64,000 nt of DNA from Paenibacillus sp. RUD330 (GTDB lineage Bacteria > Bacillota > Bacilli > Paenibacillales > Paenibacillaceae): positions 4,706,001-4,770,000 of the forward strand of contig NZ_CP022655.2 in NCBI RefSeq assembly GCF_002243345.2. The letters are read 5' to 3'. Shown one piece after another: positions 14,465-62,972 of the stretch; positions within the stretch are counted from its first letter, which is position 1, and every line of letters begins with the position of its first letter. The notes beneath the pieces are model-generated. The model saw only the letters and a program-made list of their open reading frames with translations. It ran no database searches and was not told the DNA's origin. A program made the translations under genes and the position numbers.

Positions 14465-14564
14465 TGCACACCGCTTCCCTCGCTCTACGCGAGGGACTGT
14501 ACGACCAGACCAGCTTCTCCAGATTCGGCCTCCTCCGCTCCGCTTGCGGAAAAAGAACAGCCTT

Positions 14565-14908
14565 AGGCCATGCTCCGCATGGCGCGGCGGCTCTGCAAGG
14601 CTCGTTTCGAGCCTTAAACCACGCTCCGCATGGCGCCAGCGGCTCTGCAAGGCTCGTTTCGAGCCTTAAACCACGCTCCGCATGGCGCCAGCGGCTCTGC
14701 AAGGCTCGTTTCGAGCCTTAAACCACGCTCCGCATGGCGCCAGCGGCTCTGCAAGGCTCGTTTCGAGCCTTAAACCACGCTCCGCATGGCGCCAGCGGCT
14801 CTGCAAGGCTCGTTTCGAGCCTTAAACCACGCTTCGCATGGCGCCAGCGGCTCTGCAAGGCTCGTTTCGAGCCTTAAACCACGCTTCGCATGGCGTCGGC
14901 GGCTCTAT
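14565..14908 (+). repeat. 52-bp hairpin repeat array A (6 units) between purS and purC
   Basis: The core AAGGCTCGTTTCGAGCCTT starts at 14597, 14649, 14701, 14753, 14805 and 14857, exactly 52 bp apart. Each core is a perfect 8-bp stem with a TTT loop. The 33-bp spacer (AAACCACGCTCCGCATGGCG plus CCAGCGGCTCTGC) is also repeated and nearly invariant. The array is in the message of the pur operon, in the 714-bp purC-purS gap. Related arrays are at 45855-46460 and 58895-61190. Confidence 0.95.
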
Positions 14909-19289: not shown

Positions 19290-19414
19290 AATCTCCGGTA
19301 GGAGAATCCGGCACGGGCGACTCGAAAGCCTGCGGGATGTAGGTACGCTGAAAAGCGCAGCCGAAGCCAAACAGCTCGCTCTCCAGTCGTGGACAGCCAG
19401 CCTGCTTCCGGCAT

Positions 19415-19479
19415 CCCGTAGTCCGGCGATTAAGGTCGCCAGGTAGAAACTTTCGGGCCGATTCCCGAAGATATACGAG
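19415..19479 (-). ncRNA. guanine riboswitch aptamer (pur operon leader)
   Basis: Read on the minus strand, P1 arms CUCGUA/UACGGG enclose a P2 (CUUCGGGAAUCGGCCCGAAAG), the conserved junction UUUCUACC, and a P3 (GGCGACCUUAAUCGCC). The specificity base before UAC in the 3' junction is C (GGACUAC), which in this family selects guanine or hypoxanthine rather than adenine. Binding would stabilise P1 and favour the terminator at 19260-19289, shutting off purE-purD. Confidence 0.93.
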
Positions 19480-19577
19480 TTGCTTGAAATCATATGTGGA
19501 GCAAGGGAATGCGGCCTCCTACAAGATTCGACAATCTCAGGATGATTCAAACCGCTCCCTGCCCGCTTTGCCTCCCT

Positions 19578-23815: not shown

Positions 23816-23916
23816 AGGTCGGCTGTCCAGGCAATCGGAGGCAAAGGCCGGCCCGATGGAATGGAAGCTGCAGACGCCCGTCCGAAGCGATGCTTCGTCG
23901 TGGACGCCCCCTGAAT

Positions 23917-23983
23917 TTTCGTAGCCTGGTCATTACGGTGACCGAGTAGAGACTTCCGGGCCGATTCCCGGAATTATACGAAA
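23917..23983 (-). ncRNA. guanine riboswitch aptamer (pbuG leader)
   Basis: P1 UUUCGUA/UACGAAA (perfect 7 bp); P2 with loop GGGAAUCGGCCC; junction CUCUAC; P3 GGUCACCGUAAUGACC. The specificity base before UACG is C, giving guanine-class binding. P2 and loop sequences are nearly the same as in the purE leader aptamer. Confidence 0.93.
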
Positions 23984-24014
23984 GTTGGTTAGTTATCATT
24001 GCGGAACGTAACTA

Positions 24015-33544: not shown

Positions 33545-35716
33545 TTATCGAAACAATACGAGGATCTGATTGTCGCCCGTCCGCCTCATGACCCGGTACC
33601 CCGTCTCCGAGCTCGTCGCGATGCCCTGATTGTTCGGAAGGCAATAACCGTTGACCGAGCAGGAGCCGTCGTCTCTCACGAGCAGCCTGCCGAGCAGGCC
33701 GACGGACACCCATTCCGCCCTCAGCCTTCTGGGGACGTAGCTCCGGGAAGGATCCCAGGCTGGATTGAGGACCGGGTCCGTCAGCGCATAGGCGGGACGG
33801 ATGAGAGCGCCGTCCGCGTCCCTCTCCTCGGGAACGGCCGCTTCCCGGACCTGCACCCTGCCCCACTCGTCCTTCACATACTTTTCCTCCCACCGGAGCT
33901 CCGCTGCATTTCCGACCATCGTCGGAACCGCGCTGGAGATGCCGAGGATGTCGTCGCCGGCGGCAGCCGTCCGGATCCGGTCGCCGTCCAGAGCGATGAA
34001 ATAACCCGGCTCGATGGCGCTGCCGCCGATCGTCTCGTACATCTCGGCATAGTCGGCGCCGCCGGAAAAATAGCTGCCGTCGATGGACATGTTCCCGGAA
34101 GAGCCCTGCAGCACGGCGGCCAGCCCCGGCGCGGCGGCGGAGGTCCCATTCGCCACATGCCAGGAAAAGGGGTACAGCGTCGTCCCATACCGGCCCATGA
34201 TATGAGATCCATTGAGGCTGGCGGTCGTCTGCAGCCCTTCCGCATGGGAGAAGTCCCCGCTCGCGACCGTAAGCACCCCTTCCGCATGGGCCCGGCTGCC
34301 AAGCGCCGACGTATCCGAGCCCTCGGCGTGGGAGCCGAAGCCGCCTGCTGTCGTGCCGACTCCTTCGGCATGAGAGTTGTTGCCCGAGGCGGCCGTCGTG
34401 TTGCCCTCCGCATGGGAGGCATAACCGGAAGCCGTGGATGTATACCCTTCCGCATGGGAGTTGAAGGCATTGGCGATCGTATTCGAGCCTTCCGCATGGG
34501 CGTAATTGTTGGACGCCTCGGTCATGTAACCTTCCGCATGGGAAAAGTTCCCGGATGCCGTCGTATTGGATCCCTCCGCATGGGCCGAAGTCCCCGATGC
34601 CGTCGTGCTGACTCCTTCCGCATGAGTGCCGTTGTTGGAGGAAAGCGTCGATATCCCTTCCGCATGGGAGCCAAGCCCCTCGGCGGCGGATCCGAAGCCT
34701 CCCGCATGGGAATACGTTCCGGAAGCCGTCGTCCCGGAGCCTTCCGAGTGGGAGTTCCCGCCGATGGCTGCCGTGCTGCTGCCCTCGGCATGGGAGGCGA
34801 AGCCTTCGGCGGCCGTACCGATCCCTTCCGCATGCGAATTGTTTCCGGAGGCGATCGTCGTATTCCCTTCGGCATGGGAGGCATAGCCCTCCGCGGTCGC
34901 CGCGTAGCCTTCCGCATGGGTATTGGAGGCGCTGGCGACCGTAAGCGATCCCTCCGCATGGGCATAGTTCGCGCTGGCCGCCGTATTGTAGCCTTCCGTA
35001 TGGGAATAGTTGCCGGACGCCTCGGTGCCGGAGCCCTCCGCATGGGCGTAATCCCCGCTCGCATCCGTGCCCGAGCCTTCCGCATGGGCGGCCAATCCCG
35101 ACGCCGTCGCGAATCTCCCCTCGGCGTGGGAGGATTCCCCGCTTGACGCCGTGCGGTAGCCCTCGGCATGCGACGCCGTTCCGCTCGCGTTCGTTTGAGA
35201 GCCTTCCGCATGGGCCGCATCCATGCCGGCCGTCGTCGAGAAGCCTTCCGCATGGGAGGCCGAGCCGCTCGCCACCGTCCCCGATCCTTCCGCATGCGCG
35301 CTGTCTGCGAGCGATTGCGAATTGTAGCCTTCCGCATGGGAGCCAGTGCCCGTCGCGCGCGTTTCGTCGCCCTCCGCATGGGAGGCTTCTCCGCTTGCCA
35401 TCGTCTGCGCGCCTTCCGCATGAGCGGCGTTGCCGCTGGCGACCGTTTCCGATCCTTCCGCGTGGGACGCATCGGCATTCGCCGCCGTCCTGAAGCCTTC
35501 GGCATGGGACGCCGATCCGCTCGCCGCCGTTTCCGCCCCTTCCGCGTGAGCGCTGTCCGCAATCGACTGGGTGTCGTAGCCCTCGGAATGGGCTGCATTG
35601 CCGGATGCGGTCGTGCCGCTCCCTTCCGCATGGGATGCGACTCCGCTTGCCGTCGTATTGATGCCTTCCGCCTCCGAGCAAAGCCCGGAAGGGTCCCGGT
35701 TGCAATCTTCGGGCAT
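33545..35716 (-). CDS. YadA-head-like repeat protein with Peptidase_G2-type C-terminal domain
   Basis: Residues about 13-510 are an opening SEAEG unit plus 34 consecutive units of exactly 14 residues with the pattern (S/A/T)HAEGxxTxASGxx, the left-handed parallel beta-roll repeat of trimeric adhesin heads (YadA/Hep_Hag). The C-terminal 200 residues (GGADYAEMYET, IEPGYFIALDGDRIR, ILGISSAVP) resemble the autoproteolytic Peptidase_G2 domain of phage appendages and Bacillales surface proteins. No signal peptide, membrane helix or wall anchor is visible: the N-terminus is MPEDCNRDPSGL. ATG 35716 follows GGAGGAGG by 9 nt. Synonymous codons vary between units, so the array is old. A spore-surface or phage-derived fibre is possible; neighbours do not decide it. 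Confidence 0.85.
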   Translation of the reverse strand: MPEDCNRDPSGLCSEAEGINTTASGVASHAEGSGTTASGNAAHSEGYDTQSIADSAHAEGAETAASGSASHAEGFRTAANADASHAEGSETVASGNAAHAEGAQTMASGEASHAEGDETRATGTGSHAEGYNSQSLADSAHAEGSGTVASGSASHAEGFSTTAGMDAAHAEGSQTNASGTASHAEGYRTASSGESSHAEGRFATASGLAAHAEGSGTDASGDYAHAEGSGTEASGNYSHTEGYNTAASANYAHAEGSLTVASASNTHAEGYAATAEGYASHAEGNTTIASGNNSHAEGIGTAAEGFASHAEGSSTAAIGGNSHSEGSGTTASGTYSHAGGFGSAAEGLGSHAEGISTLSSNNGTHAEGVSTTASGTSAHAEGSNTTASGNFSHAEGYMTEASNNYAHAEGSNTIANAFNSHAEGYTSTASGYASHAEGNTTAASGNNSHAEGVGTTAGGFGSHAEGSDTSALGSRAHAEGVLTVASGDFSHAEGLQTTASLNGSHIMGRYGTTLYPFSWHVANGTSAAAPGLAAVLQGSSGNMSIDGSYFSGGADYAEMYETIGGSAIEPGYFIALDGDRIRTAAAGDDILGISSAVPTMVGNAAELRWEEKYVKDEWGRVQVREAAVPEERDADGALIRPAYALTDPVLNPAWDPSRSYVPRRLRAEWVSVGLLGRLLVRDDGSCSVNGYCLPNNQGIATSSETGYRVMRRTGDNQILVLFR

Positions 35717-42675: not shown

Positions 42676-43749
42676 ATGGAAAGCAGAAAAAGTCGGCAGC
42701 AGGGCTCATCCAAGCCGAAGCCGCCAAAACGAAAGCGACGGACTTGGTTATGGGTGCTCTTCAGCGTCCTGCTTATTATGGCCGCTGCCATAGCCTATTA
42801 TATTGTCGACAATGTCAGGGCGCTTGACGAGCTCCAGAAGCCGCCGGACAAGTCCAAATTCACCCAGTTCGAGAACGACGCCTCGCTGGAGCAGCCTCCC
42901 GAGTGGGAAGGCAAGGAGCGAGTGAACATCCTGTTCATGGGAGGGGACGGACGCGAGAACAAGAGCCCGAACGAACCGGCCCGCTCCGATTCCATGATGG
43001 TGCTGTCGATCGATCCCGTCACGAAGAAAGCCCATCTCTTCTCCCTGCTCCGCGACACGTACGTGAGCATTCCCGGCCACGGCAAGGGCCGCGCCAACGA
43101 AGCGATCGTGCAGGGCGGCTACAAGCTGTCGATGCAGATGATCAGCGAACTGACGGGACTTGAGATCCAGTATTATATATACACCGAATTCGAAGGCTTC
43201 AAATCGCTTGTCGACGCCATCGGCGGCATCGACATCGATGTCGAGAAGAGGATGAAGTACACCGACAACGCCGACGGCAACCGATACGACATCGACCTGC
43301 AGAAGGGCTACCAGCACTTGAACGGCGACCAGGCGCTCCAATACGTCCGGTTCCGCCACGATGCGACGAGCGACTTCACCCGCACCGAGCGCCAGCGCAA
43401 GTTCCTCAGCGCCGTCGCCGTCAAGATGCAGGATCTCGGCAACATCACCAAGCTGAGCTCGATCATCCGCAGCGTCAGCCCGTATGTCGAAACGAATCTG
43501 TCGTCCGACGACATGTTCAAGCTCGGCCAGCTCGGCTTCGGCCTCCGCAACGCGGGTACCGCCCAGCTGCCGCCTAGCGATCTGCTCGCCGACGAGAAGA
43601 TCGGCGGCGCATCCGTGCTCACCGTCCGCAACGAAGCCAAGCTTCGCGACTATGTGCAGGAGGTCCTGACGGAGGATGATTCCCAGCCGGAGCCGGCCGC
43701 GAATTCCGGCGCGGAAAATGCTTCGAATGCTGGGGCAGGCAGCCCTTAG
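42676..43749 (+). CDS. LytR-CpsA-Psr (LCP) family wall-polymer ligase
   Basis: LCP enzymes move undecaprenyl-linked glycopolymers such as wall teichoic acid onto peptidoglycan, on the outer face of the membrane. A short basic cytoplasmic N-terminus and one helix (WLWVLFSVLLIMAAAIAYYI) are followed by the LCP domain: FMGGDGR, ARSDSMMVLSIDP, LLRDTYV and QYVRFRHD with the pyrophosphate-binding Arg residues. The tail is Glu/Ala-rich. ATG 42676 has AAGGGAG at 12 nt, somewhat long. TagO (2100) would make the lipid-linked substrate. Confidence 0.93.
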   Translation: MESRKSRQQGSSKPKPPKRKRRTWLWVLFSVLLIMAAAIAYYIVDNVRALDELQKPPDKSKFTQFENDASLEQPPEWEGKERVNILFMGGDGRENKSPNEPARSDSMMVLSIDPVTKKAHLFSLLRDTYVSIPGHGKGRANEAIVQGGYKLSMQMISELTGLEIQYYIYTEFEGFKSLVDAIGGIDIDVEKRMKYTDNADGNRYDIDLQKGYQHLNGDQALQYVRFRHDATSDFTRTERQRKFLSAVAVKMQDLGNITKLSSIIRSVSPYVETNLSSDDMFKLGQLGFGLRNAGTAQLPPSDLLADEKIGGASVLTVRNEAKLRDYVQEVLTEDDSQPEPAANSGAENASNAGAGSP

Positions 43750-43758
43750 CAGGTTCAG

Positions 43759-44009
43759 GCAGTCCGCAGCAAGGAAAAGCAGTCCGGAGCATGGACTAGA
43801 AGTCCGCAGCAAGGACAGCAGTCCGGAGCAGGTACAGCAGTCCGGAGCCGGGACAAAGAAGTCCGGAGCAGGTACAGCAGTCCGGAGCCGGGACAACAGT
43901 CTGGAGCCGGGACAAAGAAGTCCGCAGCAAGGACAGCAGTCCGCAGCAAGGACAGCAGTCCGCAGCAGGGACAGCAGTCCGGAGCAGGTACAGCTGTCCG
44001 GAGCCGGGA
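43759..44009 (+). repeat. 18-bp tandem repeat, about 13 copies
   Basis: Unit CAGTCCGGAGCAGGTACA with variants (CGCAGCAAGGACA, GGAGCCGGGACA); some units are 21 bp through an extra AAG. It begins 10 bp after the LCP stop. Further right (44049-44160) a looser repeat of GCCGGAGCAACCTT occurs 2-3 times. 43750-44409 holds no convincing gene: frames through it are Ser/Gln/Gly repeats without a ribosome site. Confidence 0.88.
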
Positions 44010-45828: not shown

Positions 45829-45854
45829 AGGTTTATTTGCTCCAAGGGGCTGCA

Positions 45855-46460
45855 TGAGCAGGCTTTAAGGCTCGAAACAAGCCTTATCGGCACTCCTCGG
45901 GCTGCATGAGCAGGCTTTAAGGCTCGAAACAAGCCTTATCGGCACTCCTCGGGCTGCATGAGCAGGCTTTAAGGCTCGAAACAGGCCTTATTGCCCTCCT
46001 CGGGCTGCATGAGCAGGCTGTAAGGCTCGAAACAGGCCTTATCGGCACTCCTCGGCCTGCATGAGCAGGCTTTAAGGCTCGAAACAAGCCTTATCGACCC
46101 TCCTCGGGCTGCATGAGCAGGCTTTAAGGCTCGAAACAAGCCTTATCGGCACTCCTCGGGCTGCATGAGCAGGCTTTAAGGCTCGAAACAAGCCTTATCG
46201 GCACTCCTCGGGCTGCATGAGCAGGCTTTAAGGCTCGAAACAAGCCTTATCGGCCCTCCTCGGGCTGCATGAGCAGGCTTTAAGACTCGAAACAGGCCTT
46301 ATTGGCCCTCCTCCGGCTGCATGAGCAGGCTTTAAGACTCGAAACAGGCCTTATCGGCACTCCTCGGGCTGCATGAGCAGGATTTAAGGCTCGAAACAAG
46401 CCTTATCGGCACTCCTCGGGCTGCATGAGCAGGCTTTAAGACTCGAAACAAGCCTTATTG
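45855..46460 (-). repeat. 52-bp hairpin repeat array B (12 units) between hemL and the kinase gene
   Basis: Cores (AAGGCTTGTTTCGAGCCTT on the minus strand) begin on the plus strand at 45867, 45919, 45971, 46022, 46074, 46126, 46178, 46230, 46282, 46334, 46386 and 46438. Ten of the eleven intervals are 52 bp and one is 51. The spacer (GCCTGCTCATGCAGCCCGAG on the minus strand) differs from arrays A and C except near the core. The array lies between convergent genes, past the hemL terminator. Confidence 0.95.
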
Positions 46461-47139: not shown

Positions 47140-47263
47140 GTTATCCCCTCCTGCCGATCTGCACCATGACTACCTTCCTTCTTGTCTTTGCTCAACCTAT
47201 CGCTGCACATCCTGTCGCTGCTCTTCCTCGGAAAATTCATTCTTTCTGCTCCTCATCCTGCTG

Positions 47264-47410
47264 TCCTATCCTGCTGTCCTATCCTCTTGTCCTATCCTGC
47301 TTTCCTATCCTGCTTTCCTAACCTGCTGTCCTGACCTGCTGTCCTATCTCGCTGTCCTATCCTGCTATCCTATCTGCTATCCTATCTGCTATCCTATCCT
47401 GCGTCCCTAT
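47264..47410. repeat. 13-bp tandem repeat, about 11 copies
   Basis: Unit TCCTATCCTGCTG with single-base variants; two units are 12 bp. Strand asymmetry is extreme (almost no G on the plus strand except one per unit). The rest of 47140-47700 holds no gene I can support. Confidence 0.85.
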
Positions 47411-54483: not shown

Positions 54484-54590
54484 CGAAAGGGATGCGTTGC
54501 CGCAGGCAGGCATGCAGGCAAACAGCCGCTGCCCGCAGCTCTCCCTCCCATCCTCGCGGGAAGCTATGATTCAAGCTTTGCATGGCAGGT

Positions 54591-54752
54591 CTCCTGGCTT
54601 CGCTTCATCGCGCCGCCCTTCCTTCCCATCCCGGCAGGGACAGTGGATGCCTCGGGCAGCCGCTCGGCTTCACAGTGGCGGGACCGCGTCGAATTTCCAT
54701 CGAACTTCCCTATTAAGCCCGCAGGCGGAAATACCCGCGCAGGCACCATAAA
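54591..54752 (-). ncRNA. cobalamin (B12) riboswitch
   Basis: On the minus strand the conserved parts appear in order: GGTGCC (P1/P2 region), AATAGGGAAG, GCGGTCCCGCCACTGTGA (B12 box core GCCACTG) and AAGCCAGGAGACCTGCC. With adenosyl- or related cobalamin bound it should promote the terminator at 54454-54483. A TACAAT -10 candidate lies upstream (54785-54790) without a good -35. Confidence 0.95.
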
Positions 54753-54994
54753 AGCAGCTATGAAATTGTTGAAAGTCATCCCTCATTGTAGCAGACTCCG
54801 CCCCAAAACACAGTACCCAGTTTGCGGCTCCCAGCACCGCGGCGGATCGGCAGCGGCTTCCCGGATCATTTCCGCTTGCTTCCTTCAGTACTTGGCGTGC
54901 AGCATGATCTCCCGCAACCCCAACGTTCCGGTGTTGCGGTTCTACAACTCCAAGGGCGCCGCGTCCGATCGCTTGGAGAGCCCGGCCCGCCGCG

Positions 54995-58615: not shown

Positions 58616-58810
58616 ATGTTCAACAATATCGGCATTTCCGGGCTGGTCATCATTTTCGCCATTGCCCTGATCGTGTTCGGCCCGGCCAAGCTTCCTCAGC
58701 TCGGGCGCGCCTTCGGCGATACGCTGCGCGAGTTCCGCAACTCGACCAAAGGAATCGTCGACGACGATGTCATCGAGCCGTCGAAGGAAGAGCGCAAGCA
58801 GCTGAACTAG
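58616..58810 (+). CDS. tatA: Sec-independent protein translocase TatA
   Basis: Pore-forming Tat subunit: one helix ([14 protein letters not shown]), hinge [20 protein letters not shown], acidic/basic tail. 64 aa, typical for Bacillales TatA. AAAAGGAG site. A minimal TatA-TatC system with order C-A, the reverse of B. subtilis tatAy-tatCy. Confidence 0.95.
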
Positions 58811-58894: not shown

Positions 58895-59431
58895 CAGGCT
58901 AAGGCTCGTTTCGGTCCTTAATCGGCCTCTGCTGACCGCTGGTAGCACCATTAAGGCCCGTTATGGTCCTTAATCGGCCTCTGCTGACCCCTGGAAGCTC
59001 CATTAAGGCTCGTTTCGATCCTTAATCCGCCTCTGCTGACCCCTGGAAGCACCATTAAGGCCCGTTTCGGTCCTTAATCCGCCTCTGCTGACCCCTGGAA
59101 GCACTATTAAGGCCCGTTTCGGTCCTTAATCCATCTCTTCAGACCCCTGGAAGCACCATTAAGGCCCGTTTTGGCCCTTAATCCACCTCTTTTGACCCCT
59201 GGAAGTACCATTAAGGCTCGTTTCGGTCCTTAATTCGCTTCTGCTGACCGCTGGAAGCACCATTAAGGCTCGTTTCGATCCTTAATCCGCCTCTGCATAC
59301 CCCCGGAAGCACCATTAAGGCCCGTTTCGGTCCTTAATTCGCTTCTGCTGACCGCTGGAAGCACCATTAAGGCCCGTTTCGGTCCTTAATCCGCCTCTGC
59401 TGACCCCCGGAAGCACCATTAAGGCTCGTTT
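58895..59431 (+). repeat. 52-bp hairpin repeat array C, left part (11 units)
   Basis: Cores start at 58901, 58953, 59005, 59057, 59109, 59161, 59213, 59265, 59317, 59369 and 59421, always 52 bp apart. Pattern ATTAAGG-c-(C/T)CG-TTT-CG(G/A)-t-CCTTAAT: outer arms pair perfectly and the inner triplet varies but keeps pairing. The spacer is CCGCCTCTGCTGACCCCTGG plus AAGCACC with variants. The last core is cut in its loop by the insertion sequence. Confidence 0.95.
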
Positions 59432-59500
59432 TGCAGCTAGAATAAAAAGTGGACACCAAATAACGGACAGCCAATAATAACCGTAAATGGAGGTGTTCAC

Positions 59501-59797
59501 ATGAGTGAGCAACGGCAGCGGTACAATGAAGAATTCAAGAAACAAACCGTGAAGTTCATACAAGAACAGACCAAGTCAGTCCGAGAGATCGCAGAGGAGC
59601 TCGACATCCCCAAGAGCACGTTGAATCAATGGCTTTCTCAGTATCGACAATTCGAAACGGAGCCGGTTAACAGCGCGGAACGCATACGCCAGCTTGAACA
59701 GCAGCTGAAAGAAAAAGAACGTCGGATCGCCGATGTGGAAGAGGAACTGGCCATTGTAAAAAAAGCCGTGCACATCTTCAGCAAACCACGGAACTGA
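59501..59797 (+). CDS. IS3-family transposase OrfA
   Basis: 98 aa: helix-turn-helix (SVREIAEELDIPKSTLNQWL) that binds the IS ends, then a leucine-zipper-like coiled coil (RIRQLEQQLKEKERRIADVE) for multimerisation. GGAGG lies about 6 nt upstream of ATG 59501. Normal translation stops at 59797; a fraction of ribosomes should shift to -1 at 59758-59764 to make OrfAB. Confidence 0.95.
   Translation: MSEQRQRYNEEFKKQTVKFIQEQTKSVREIAEELDIPKSTLNQWLSQYRQFETEPVNSAERIRQLEQQLKEKERRIADVEEELAIVKKAVHIFSKPRN
59758..59764 (+). promoter_or_regulatory. programmed -1 frameshift site of the IS3 transposase
   Basis: Slippery A_AAA_AAA with orfA codons AAA-AAA. After slipping, frame -1 is open through NFQFIEDHRSEFRLEKM into orfB. 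A perfect hairpin GAACTGAA-TT-TTCAGTTC (59791-59808) over the orfA stop may stimulate slipping. Confidence 0.85.
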
Positions 59798-59844
59798 ATT
59801 TTCAGTTCATTGAAGACCATCGCTCCGAGTTCCGTCTGGAGAAG

Positions 59845-60663
59845 ATGTGCAGTGTTCTTGAGGTGTCCCGGAGCGGGTATTACAAGTGGCACTGTACAAA
59901 GCCTAGTGCTCAAACGCTCCGCAAAGCCCAGCTGCAGGAGCGAATTCGGTTCTTCTTTCACGATGCCCAACAGCGCTACGGTGCACCGAAGATTACGCAC
60001 ATGCTTCACCAGGAAGGGCACCGCATCACCGAACGAACCGTAGGCCTATATATGGCCGAACTTGGTCTCCGCTCTTGTGTCTCCCGCACGTTTAAAGTCA
60101 CAACAACCGACTCCAGTCATGACCTTGCCATTGCCCCCAACACTCTCAACCAGCAATTTACGGTTGAGAAACCGAACCAGGTTTGGGTCGCTGACATTAC
60201 CTATATTCCCTGTCGGGAGGGACGACTGTTTCTGGCTAGCGTCATGGATCTCTGTACGCGTGAAATTGTAGGCTGGAAGCTGGCTCCCCATATGAAAACG
60301 GATCTTGTGCTCGACGCGCTGAAGATGGCTCACGACGCCAAACGACCTTTGCAGGGACTCTTGCACCACTCGGATCGAGGAAGCCAGTACGCTTCCCACG
60401 AATACCGTAGCCAACTAACTCAGTACAACATGAAGGCGAGTATGAGCCGTAGAGGCAACTGTTATGACAACGCCAGCATGGAGTCTTTTCACAGTATTCT
60501 GAAGAAAGAATTCATTTACTGTACCCGTTTTAAGACTCGGGAGCAGGCTTACCATGATCTCTACCACTACATTGAGTTTTTCTATAACCGGAAGCGAATC
60601 CACGGTTCGCTTGGGTATCTTTCACCTGCTCGTTTTGCAGCTACGTTTAAGCAGATTTCCTAA
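59845..60663 (+). CDS. IS3-family transposase OrfB (catalytic DDE part)
   Basis: RNase H-fold integrase. HTH_21 segment (QRYGAPKITHMLHQEGHRIT), then DDE residues: Asp in VWVADITYIP, Asp in LLHHSDRGSQYAS, Glu in NCYDNASMESFHSILKKE, followed by FYNRKRIHGSLGYLSP. All residues are present and the frame is intact, so the element could be active. Frame is -1 to orfA; ATG 59845 is the first internal start, but the working product is the OrfAB fusion from 59501. Confidence 0.96.
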   Translation: MCSVLEVSRSGYYKWHCTKPSAQTLRKAQLQERIRFFFHDAQQRYGAPKITHMLHQEGHRITERTVGLYMAELGLRSCVSRTFKVTTTDSSHDLAIAPNTLNQQFTVEKPNQVWVADITYIPCREGRLFLASVMDLCTREIVGWKLAPHMKTDLVLDALKMAHDAKRPLQGLLHHSDRGSQYASHEYRSQLTQYNMKASMSRRGNCYDNASMESFHSILKKEFIYCTRFKTREQAYHDLYHYIEFFYNRKRIHGSLGYLSPARFAATFKQIS

Positions 60664-60705
60664 AGGTGTCCGTTATCGACTATCTACTTTCTTGACGTAG
60701 GTCCA

Positions 60706-61190
60706 TTTCGGTCCTTAATCCGCCTCTGCTGACTGCTGGTAGCACCATTAAGACTCGTTTCGGTCCTTAATCCACCTCTGCATACCCCCGGAAGCACCAT
60801 TAAGGCCCGTTTCGGTCCTTAATCCTCCTCTGCTGACCCCTGGAAGCCCCATTAAGGCTCGTTTCGATCCTTAATCCACCTCTGCATACCCCCGGAAGCA
60901 CCATTAAGGCTCGTTTCGATCCTTAATCCTCCTCTGCTGACCCCTGGAAGCTCCATTAAGGCTCGTTTCGGTCCTTAATCCGCCTCTGCAGAACGCTGGA
61001 ATCACCATAAAGGCTCGTTTCGGTCCTTAATCGGCCTCTGCATACCCCCGGAAGCACCATTAAGGCCCGTTTCGGTCCTTAATCGGCCTCTACTGACCGC
61101 TGGAAGCACCATTAAGGCCCGTTTTGGCCCTTAATCCACCTCTTTTGACCGCTGGAAGCACCATTAAGGCCCGTTTCCCGCCTTATCCTG
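60706..61190 (+). repeat. 52-bp hairpin repeat array C, right part (half unit plus 9 units)
   Basis: Begins with the right half of the interrupted hairpin (TTTCGGTCCTTAAT), then cores at 60750, 60802, 60854, 60906, 60958, 61010, 61062, 61114 and 61166. Units match the left part. The last one is degenerate (CCCGTTTCCCGCCTTA). The array lies between convergent tatA and the dehydrogenase gene. Confidence 0.95.
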
Positions 61191-61216: not shown

Positions 61217-61247
61217 AAAAAGGGCCAACCGGATCAGGTTGGCCCTT
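61217..61247 (-). terminator. terminator of the dehydrogenase operon
   Basis: AAGGGCCAACC/GGTTGGCCCTT perfect 11-bp stem, followed leftwards by TTTCTTG. It is 7 bp beyond the GMC stop. Confidence 0.88.
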
Positions 61248-61253
61248 GAAGCT

Positions 61254-62972
61254 TTATTTCGCCAGGCTGCCGCCTTTCTTGCGGTATTCCAATATTCCCT
61301 CCGCGGCCCGGTAAGCGAGCGCCCCGACCGTGCCGGTCGGATTGTAGCCCGAGTTCATCGGGAACGAGCTTGCGCCCACGACGAACAGATTGTCGACATC
61401 CCAGCTTTGGGAGTAGCTGTTCACCGCCGAGGTTTCCGGGGAATCGCCCATCACGACGCCGCCCGTATTATGCGTGGACTGGTAGGTCACGATGTCGTAC
61501 GGCCCCAGCTCCTTGAGCTGGTCGACATGGCTGGCGCCCATCTCCTTGACGATCTCGGCCGATTTGTTGGCCAGGAACACCGCCAGCTCGCGGTCCTGCT
61601 CCTCGAAGTCGAACGTGATGCGCACGAGCGGGTCGCCGAACGTGTCCTTGTAGGTCGGATCGAGATCGAGGAAGTGATGGCGGAACGGCATCGACGACCC
61701 TTGGCCTCCGACAGACAGCACCCGGTTCGCGTATTTCAAGGAATTCTTCTTGAATTCGGCACCCCATGCCGGCGTTCCCGAAGGAACCGGGTTGTTCAGG
61801 ATCGGGCGCTGGCCGGTCTGGCCGATGCTGATGGAGCCGCCATGGATGAACTTCAGGTCGCTGTGGTCGAAGTTGTCCCCGTTGTAGTTGTCGAGATTGA
61901 CGCCGAGAGCGCCTGCCCCCGCGAAGTTGTTGAATTCCTCGTTCTCGAAAAATCCCGCCGCATTGCCCTTGATGACCTGATAGGCATAGTTGCGGCCGAT
62001 GACGCCCTTGCCGGTGGCGGAATCGTACGGCTTGCCGATGCCGGACATCAGCATCAGACGCACATTGTTGAACACATAGCTCGTGACGACGACGATGTCC
62101 GCCGGCTGCTCGATCTCCTCGCCGGTCGTGACGTCCGTATAGAGCACTCCTGTCGCCTTGCCCCCGGTATGTAGGATTCGGCGGACGTTGGAATGGGTCC
62201 GGATTTCGAATTTCCCCGTCTTTTTGGCGACCGGAATGACGGTCACGACAGGATCAGCCTTGGCTCCGTACTCGCAGCCGAACCGCTCGCAATACCCGCA
62301 ATACTGGCAAGCCGCGCGCGACACTCCGTCCGGATTCGTATAGTTTTCCGACAGATTGGCGGAAGGCTGCATATAGGGATTCAGGTTCAGCTTCTTGGCC
62401 GCTTCGATGAATTTCTGCATGGCGGGAGTCTTCTTCATCGGTGGCGTCGGATAAGGATTCGACCGCTTGCCTCCAAGCGGATTCTCCTCGCCGGACAGCC
62501 CGATCAGTTTCTCGAACTTGTCGTAGTAAGGCTCCAGTTCGTCGTACGTGATGCCCCAATCCTGCAGCGTCATGCCGTCCGGAATTTTCGCCTTGCCGTA
62601 GCGCTCGATCGTCTTCGTCCGGATCTGGAAGTCATAGGGCAGAAAGCGGAACGTCTGTCCGTTCCAGTGCACGCCGGAGCCGCCCAGCCCGTCCCCGAGC
62701 AGGAACGAGCCGTACTGCCGCATCGGCAGCGCCCTTACCTGCTCCTTGCTGCGGAAGGTGATCGTTTCCTTGGACAGATCCTGCATCAAATCGTACCGCA
62801 CGCCGTAGCGAAGCTCGTCATGCACCATGAAGTAGTCTTCGGTTTTGCGCTCTCTTCCGCGCTCCAGCCCGACGACGCCCAGACCCTGCTTGGTCAGCTC
62901 GGAGGCGATGATGCCGCCTGCCCAGCCGACTCCGACGATGACGACATCGGTTTTCGGTAATTTCCTTGCCAT
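61254..62972 (-). CDS. GMC-family FAD dehydrogenase large subunit (gluconate 2-dehydrogenase / sugar dehydrogenase type)
   Basis: Flavin enzyme oxidising a sugar, sugar acid or alcohol and passing electrons to a cytochrome. Dinucleotide site VIVGVGWAGGIIASEL at the N-terminus; a Cys-rich CQYCGYCERFGC typical of subfamily members with an Fe-S cluster; C-terminal catalytic region STHNTGG and NPTGTVGALAYRAAE. No signal peptide, so it is probably carried out with its Tat-signal partner encoded 18 bp upstream. 572 aa. ATG 62972 follows AAGGAG. Substrate not decidable. Confidence 0.92.
   Translation of the reverse strand: MARKLPKTDVVIVGVGWAGGIIASELTKQGLGVVGLERGRERKTEDYFMVHDELRYGVRYDLMQDLSKETITFRSKEQVRALPMRQYGSFLLGDGLGGSGVHWNGQTFRFLPYDFQIRTKTIERYGKAKIPDGMTLQDWGITYDELEPYYDKFEKLIGLSGEENPLGGKRSNPYPTPPMKKTPAMQKFIEAAKKLNLNPYMQPSANLSENYTNPDGVSRAACQYCGYCERFGCEYGAKADPVVTVIPVAKKTGKFEIRTHSNVRRILHTGGKATGVLYTDVTTGEEIEQPADIVVVTSYVFNNVRLMLMSGIGKPYDSATGKGVIGRNYAYQVIKGNAAGFFENEEFNNFAGAGALGVNLDNYNGDNFDHSDLKFIHGGSISIGQTGQRPILNNPVPSGTPAWGAEFKKNSLKYANRVLSVGGQGSSMPFRHHFLDLDPTYKDTFGDPLVRITFDFEEQDRELAVFLANKSAEIVKEMGASHVDQLKELGPYDIVTYQSTHNTGGVVMGDSPETSAVNSYSQSWDVDNLFVVGASSFPMNSGYNPTGTVGALAYRAAEGILEYRKKGGSLAK

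Follow-up and report, generated by a model that had tools for sequence, protein, structure and literature searches.

One criterion for repetitive extragenic palindromes (REPs) and bacterial interspersed mosaic elements (BIMEs) is that they bind gyrase, IHF or Pol I; REP doublets forming hairpins (REPINs) are palindromic, dispersed and lineage-specific, and the insertion sequences (ISs) IS1397 and ISKpn1 insert in the loop of a palindrome. Two papers (PMC1525189, PMC2817692) describe REP/BIME sequences as short extragenic palindromes that are grouped, variable among strains and targeted by ISs, and the first names IS1397 and ISKpn1, both of the IS3 family, as elements targeting palindromic units or REPs. 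Here we characterize a comparable organization in a 64,000-nt stretch of Paenibacillus sp. RUD330 (the window; positions are window coordinates, and arrays of RUD330 are termed own arrays). Array C, located at 58898-61187, is comprised of tandem 52-bp units, each holding a 25-bp palindrome with a TTT loop. We consider it probable that array C is a REP-like phased palindrome array acting at the DNA level, with a putative function.

The arrays resemble REP/BIME in being extragenic palindromic units, grouped, variable among strains and IS-targeted, and differ in the head-to-tail order of own units and in a period of 50-52 bp, whereas BIMEs alternate in orientation. No GT(A/G)G head precedes the palindrome in consensuses of own arrays A-F and of one array from the genus genome G001, in which the three bases preceding AAGG are TGC, GAT, ATT, TGT, ATT, TCT, and TCC. 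Similar to REPINs associated with REP-associated tyrosine transposases (RAYTs), the arrays are palindromic, dispersed and lineage-specific; unlike REPINs, they are not made of two inverted REPs, and no match to the RAYT/Y1 transposase profile PF01797 was found in genomes G000, G001, G004, G005, and G007, RUD330 included. The profile is matched in 3/8 genus genomes (G002, G003, and G006), and as G006 holds both arrays and a match, a RAYT link may exist there. For the RUD330 genome, the RAYT/REPIN identity was rejected because of the missing PF01797 match. With bacterial minisatellites (variable number tandem repeats), the arrays share tandem units and copy number variation between relatives, and they differ from them by keeping one period and one palindrome design across unlike sequences.

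Two other identities were rejected: CRISPR, because spacers within each own array are near-identical copies, and intrinsic terminators as a general reading, because the array palindromes inspected are not followed by a T run. An open-access literature search found no paper on these arrays, and the available part of the P. pasadenensis R16 genome paper mentions repeats only as CRISPRs.

Tandem palindromes with a common period

The palindrome of array C has the form ATTAAGG-C-YCG-TTT-CGR-T-CCTTAAT and recurs in two blocks of units (58898-59431 and 60706-61187). Tandem palindromes exceed chance, as a reversed control pattern gave 0 matches. The RUD330 genome contains at least seven arrays, three in the window (A, B, and C), and D (locus L001), E (L002), F (L034), and H (L097). 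Units of own arrays all follow one another head to tail in a single orientation.

Searched through 394 genomes of the family, a strict tandem pattern matched RUD330 alone, because inner stems differ elsewhere, and a covariance model of the unit was therefore needed. This model found 6/8 genus genomes at E <=1, with G003 at just 0.31. A scan for tandem AAGGC-N8-GCCTT in one genome per species, in which the first gap was preset to 48-54 bp and the 61-63 bp class was not preset, disclosed 112 stretches, of which 17 belong to unrelated taxa and 95 to Paenibacillaceae. The latter are distributed among P. cymbidii R196 (40), P. pasadenensis DSM 19293 (21), metagenome-assembled genome (MAG) C_No_T20_A_bin.4 (21), Paenibacillus sp. 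NEAU-GSW1 (7), P. pasadenensis MER37 (5), and P. lupini (1). The family is seen in seven Paenibacillaceae lineages, RUD330 and six more. Genomes G005 and G006 were taken as P. pasadenensis DSM 19293 and MER37, and their loci were replaced by these named copies in the counts of spacing, context, single changes, and covariation.

Distances between centres of neighbouring palindromes, P. lupini excluded, are concentrated at 50 bp (168), 51 bp (126), and 52 bp (98), 392 in total. Other values are 49 bp (3) and 53 bp (2), none in the range of 54-60 bp, 61-63 bp (14), and 70-134 bp (26, mostly about two periods). The period is 50 bp in P. cymbidii and 51 or 52 bp in other lineages. Spacing steps of 10-11 bp suggest a helix-face constraint. 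At one locus of NEAU-GSW1 (L121), centres alternate at 51 and 61-62 bp, forming a two-unit repeat of ~113 bp.

When distinct tandem consensuses were compared, unrelated taxa included, 89/116 with a period of 50-52 bp proved palindromic (exceeding 95% of 60 shuffles), versus 0/17 with other periods within 45-60 bp. AAGGC is missing in 10/89, for example in AGCGCATG-AAA-CATGCGCT, TAAGCCGG.., and TAACGGCA..; one of these ten (L114) is a match of the model, the rest adjoined fetched arrays, and some have about two copies only. Four P. cymbidii loci (L119, L149, L161, and L203) carry a second type of 52-bp array, AGCGCATG-AAA/TTT-CATGCGCT, near the first type.

Insertion into the palindrome loop

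Array C is interrupted by an element with ends TGCAGC..GGTCCA (TG..CA), an HTH domain in orfA and an rve domain in orfB, features that define the IS3 family. Three near-identical copies were found in the RUD330 genome, all in palindrome loops (arrays C, D, and F), with a target duplication of TTT at C and AAA at D, and without a clean 3-bp duplication at F. According to our own arithmetic, which takes 89 as the upper limit of unit matches (a few being doubles from the opposite strand), with 3-bp loops and 5.57 Mb, the chance of a loop insertion is ~5e-5 per copy. These copies demonstrate that the IS in RUD330 uses the loop of the array palindrome as its insertion target. The F copy was placed by the surrounding array, its flank complementarity alone being unremarkable (4.5, compared with a null 95% value of 6.0); the null is strict because joined flanks of different sites include own arms.

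Relatives of the IS were matched in 173/394 genomes, and insertion sites were studied at 33 loci, for five of which (L041, L050, L052, L060, and L062) the ends could not be placed or one flank was absent. If a duplication of 2-5 bp is required, palindromes are present at 4/28 IS sites, three own and one in G001. If it is not required, a fifth palindrome site appears among 28 two-flank sites (these include the second G001 copy and exclude one that has no right flank). At this site (L056, in G218), a 69% relative occupies the loop of an unlike palindrome, ATACCTGTAT-TTC-ATACAGGTAT, with an 11-bp duplication. The site L064 is borderline, with a score of 7.5 between the null 95% and 99% values of 6.0 and 8.0. 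In G001, a 72% relative resides in the loop of a CCAAGGCACAAACGTGCCTTGG array and its sister copy does not lie in a loop (1/2), and a 76% copy in G003 is not in a palindrome. The idea that all members of this IS group target palindromes was rejected, since most sites of relatives are like the null. The RUD330 element is similar to IS1397 and ISKpn1 in its family, in orfA with HTH and orfB with integrase, and in its insertion in palindromes; it differs in the Paenibacillus host, in the phased tandem target, and in that most relatives looked at are outside palindromes.

Pairing between palindrome arms

A first-pass annotation considered changes in the inner triplets of array C as compensatory and indicative of an RNA form. 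In the 19 scorable units (the insertion-split unit was excluded), the triplets are CCG..CGG (6), TCG..CGG (5), TCG..CGA (4), CCG..TGG (3), and CCG..CCC (1). All four CGA units indeed have TCG on the left and CCG..CGA does not occur; these palindromes start at 59002, 59262, 60851, and 60903, while the annotation counted from AAGG, three bases later (59005 etc.). The outer arms are near-invariant, as had been stated, both being exact in 15/19 units. The triplet counts stand, although the annotation had omitted the degenerate unit at the end and the three CCG..TGG units, together with the 1274-bp IS3-family element and a standing mismatch within the proposed stem, where columns 8/18, the pair just outside the triplet, are C.T or C.C in 18/19 units. 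The observation is thus partly confirmed, being real yet incomplete.

The compensatory character of these changes is another matter. With the degenerate last unit excluded (18 units), the association of TCG with CGA gives a Fisher p of 0.041 one-sided and 0.082 two-sided. This pair ranks 12th of 105 pairs of variable columns and is therefore not distinct from ordinary linkage. When 3' arms were re-dealt among units, the observed count of Watson-Crick cells was reached in 83/2000 trials (the ranking and re-dealing exclude one mis-registered unit of array D as well as the last unit of C). Most simply, the pattern represents a C-to-T change followed by G-to-A on the T background, multiplied by copying. 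It is very improbable that the TCG/CGA pairs of array C arose through selection for a folded RNA: TCG in 4/4 CGA units and the result of arm shuffling agree with such an origin, but two mutations suffice, nothing alike was found in 84 other arrays, and the claim is largely refuted by arm re-dealing and by the counts of single and double changes below. The internal pattern of array C is a borderline association that does not support RNA structure.

These counts refer to 88 arrays with 530 units, excluding 17/112 loci from unrelated taxa, arrays of <2.5 copies, and arrays with a palindrome score <6. Read on the T-loop strand, paired sites with a single departure from the consensus of their array number 77 G.T, 79 A.C, and 70 other, with no strand bias on that strand between G.T and A.C (p 0.94). 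Double changes comprise 6 compensated, 1 G.T, and 1 other, with 7.9 doubles expected. Unpaired single changes (79 A.C and 70 other) exceed both wobble (77) and compensated (6) ones, and in this larger alignment unpaired changes are at least as frequent as paired ones, the very outcome that the annotation had named as contradicting its inference of an RNA form. No arm association was found within 84 arrays (488 units) of other lineages, in which 3888 Watson-Crick cells compare with 3889.3 permuted (348/500). The stem is less variable than its 4-base flanks (0.028 and 0.109, 88 arrays).

As only four own array blocks passed score 6, units of own arrays A-F were placed by hand for this analysis, with array H excluded there. 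Their eight stem pairs include 466 Watson-Crick, 54 G.T, 37 A.C, and 35 other cells. On the T-loop strand, arrays C (8 v 1), D (11 v 0), and B (15 v 4) lean to G.T over A.C, array E, which has a standing A.C mismatch, leans to A.C (5 v 19), and array F is even (15 v 13). In an alignment of 23 units (own A-F and one G001 array), the covariation score is 0.236 versus 0.210 +- 0.019 in shuffles, 45/500 of which are as high. A scan of the window against Rfam (gathering scores) matched none of arrays A, B, and C; it revealed a cobalamin riboswitch and two purine riboswitches at 54566-54765, 19399-19498, and 23902-24001 (minus strand).

Comparison between arrays shows that paired positions do co-vary over long times between lineages, and this is the scale at which the idea of co-changing paired sites holds. 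We used 89 array consensuses from seven lineages (array C entered twice as two blocks; P. lupini excluded). Pair 6 is Watson-Crick in 79/89, in contrast to a shuffled mean of 31.7 and maximum of 47 (0/2000). Pair -1 (76 vs 51.7 shuffled) and pair 7 (66 vs 42.1) also gave 0/2000 each, followed by pair 8 (54 vs 43.2, 1/2000) and pair -2 (31 vs 22.4, 47/2000), and pair -3 shows the opposite trend (28 vs 41.5). Pair 6 is T-A in P. cymbidii (32/36), A-T in P. pasadenensis DSM 19293 and G001 (19/19), C-G in P. pasadenensis MER37 (5/5) and MAG C_No_T20_A_bin.4 (13/14), and mixed in the RUD330 genome and NEAU-GSW1, which requires at least two double changes. Lineages are few, and the shuffle figures therefore overstate independent events; pairs of AAGGC/GCCTT are nearly fixed because they were part of most searches, and a mild bias comes from the unit finder, which chose among overlapping candidates partly by pairs 6 and 7.

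Genome context, turnover and function

Features of the window are listed in Table 1. Genes around arrays were called by a simple home-made codon-usage script, by which 77/110 arrays were placed, the other 33 being too close to the locus end. The arrays lie in 41 tandem, 30 convergent, and 6 divergent gaps, whereas all gaps >=60 bp in array-bearing loci are 188 tandem, 76 convergent, and 72 divergent (convergent vs divergent enrichment p 7.8e-6, array gaps removed from the background). Arrays are extragenic, with a predicted non-IS ORF overlapping in 4/77 (L148, L219, L131, and L221).

Table 1. Arrays, insertion element and neighbouring features in the window
Feature	Position	Strand	Remarks
Array A	14559..14906	+	52-bp units, AAGGCTCG-TTT-CGAGCCTT; between presumed (from translations) purC-like and purS-like genes, both minus strand
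Array B	45847..46458	-	12 units, commonest AAGGCTTG-TTT-CGAGCCTT (minus reading); presumed (from translations) hemL-like (+) and uridine-kinase-like (-) genes, convergent
tatA (PF02416)	58616..58810	+	gene left of array C
Array C, left block	58898..59431	+	10 scored 52-bp units and left half of split unit; TTT loop read on +
Palindrome with TCG..CGA	59002..59026	+	one of four in array C
TTT target duplication	59429..59431 (left copy), 60706-60708 (right copy)	+
IS3-family element, 1274 bp	59432..60705	+	splits array C inside TTT loop of one unit
IS orfA, HTH_Tnp_1 (PF01527, 1.2e-11)	59501..59797	+
IS orfB, integrase core rve (PF00665, 3.4e-26)	59845..60663	+
Array C, right block	60706..61187	+	right half of split unit, 8 regular units, degenerate last unit
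Intrinsic-terminator-like hairpin with T tail	61220..61247	-	between GMC gene and array C
GMC oxidoreductase (PF00732, PF05199)	61254..62972	-	right of array C, points toward array C

The window also contains 42-bp and 126-bp tandem repeats at 34533-35560, both including CTTCCGCATGGG (42 bp is about four helix turns), and short-period tandem repeats of 19/59/78 bp and 13 bp at 43748-44009 and 47250-47406.

A unit of ~51 bp corresponds to five turns of B-DNA, with one short palindrome with an A/T loop per unit, and, as units succeed head to tail, successive palindromes are placed on about one helix face. The array probably acts as DNA, either through two-fold symmetry or as an extruded hairpin. 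The IS transposase would recognize its palindrome, as would, probably, a DNA-binding protein of the host, in a way resembling REP/BIME in Proteobacteria. Palindromes could be kept by array turnover together with hairpin-templated correction, symmetry selection, or both, a scheme that does not invoke stepwise RNA compensation inside the array. In favour of this DNA-level reading are the spread of the arrays over lineages, their spacing, the palindromic consensuses confined to periods of 50-52 bp, the covariation between arrays, the lack of a G.T or A.C bias on the T-loop strand, the preference for convergent over divergent gaps, the IS copies in loops, and the low variability of the stem relative to its flanks.

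Several observations weigh against such a DNA-level reading. Spacing shifts slightly from lineage to lineage (50, 51, 52), and 13/14 of the 61-63 bp class come from NEAU-GSW1, which alternates 51 and 61-63 bp in a two-unit repeat. Among IS sites, 22/28 resemble the null, most relatives being outside palindromes, and we know of no protein that binds these arrays. Within own arrays A-F, taken together, the two arms are weakly associated (466 Watson-Crick cells vs 459.8 permuted, 64/2000). Array A adjoins same-strand pur genes on both sides, and gene and array have a terminator-like hairpin between them on 25/78 sides (11.7 in shuffles), as counted by a scan that missed a plain hairpin beside array B; some arrays are therefore probably transcribed. 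On the mRNA strand of 33 arrays between same-strand genes, G.T exceeds A.C (48 v 27, p 0.02; distinct events 32 v 20), which could be a weak hint of RNA or a C-to-T bias of transcribed DNA strands.

The position of array A, the mRNA-strand excess, the 53/78 gene-to-array sides devoid of a terminator, and the scarcity of arrays in divergent gaps are what would be expected if arrays formed 3' tails or inter-cistronic spacers, whose stacked hairpins slow exonucleases or end transcription and whose pairing is selected in RNA. We nevertheless find this explanation unlikely. On the T-loop strand there is no excess of G.T, compensated doubles are not in excess, arms are unassociated in the 84 arrays, and mismatches persist in arrays C (C.T) and E (A.C). 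When single units are folded as RNA, neither strand gains more than a modest advantage over shuffles (z -0.2 to -2.3), and on the GMC side, array C is preceded by the terminator-like hairpin. Some transcribed arrays may have an RNA role.

Turnover of arrays is evident in the comparison with G004. There, the loci corresponding to own arrays B, C, and F contain one or two divergent units, and that corresponding to E contains ~4-5 decayed ones, whereas the RUD330 arrays have 11 to 20; G004 is a draft assembly (110 contigs) in which some array collapse is possible. The segment 61199-64000 is 99.4% identical to G004, compared with 93-95% left of array C, suggesting that a recombined or replaced segment ends at the array. 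The consensus units obtained from 36 P. cymbidii loci are of a single 50-bp kind, with the loop core GAAATC in 25/40 loci and its reverse complement GATTTC in 10/40. Spacers of these loci align in one orientation (identity 0.66 vs 0.28 reversed). Loop inversion in P. cymbidii is suggestive, and not more, because two A-to-T changes also explain the core reversal and GATATC intermediates exist there; within arrays, exact loop inversion was observed in 1/530 units, along with 18 other multi-base loop changes.

Arrays that come and go in this manner, and cores reversed between spacers of one orientation as inversion of the loop would yield, are in line with functionless minisatellites, in which hairpin-prone seeds grow and shrink by slippage, the arms are restored to perfection by template switching during replication, and the IS simply prefers hairpins. 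According to PMC8794818, template switching can create and mend hairpins and give compensatory-looking changes, and compensation between lineages is therefore explicable without RNA. This alternative is a serious one, although we incline against it: it does not explain the period of 50-52 bp common to unlike palindromes, the gap in spacing at 54-60 bp, or the shortage in divergent gaps, and its support from inversion and from G004 is reduced by the two-change route and by possible collapse in the draft.

Returning to the DNA-level, REP-like reading of array C, a more specific and rather doubtful version would see the arrays as a Firmicutes counterpart of BIMEs, a same-face docking scaffold (five or six turns) for gyrase or a nucleoid protein near gene ends, whose symmetry is kept by hairpin-templated repair and not by RNA selection, and whose loop is read by an IS3 parasite.

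A compensatory pattern of textbook appearance in a tandem array can vanish under within-array controls despite real covariation between lineages. The set of phased palindrome arrays in Paenibacillaceae, with its spacing step of 10-11 bp and a loop-picking IS, represents a test bed for the biology of DNA hairpins, array expansion, and target choice.

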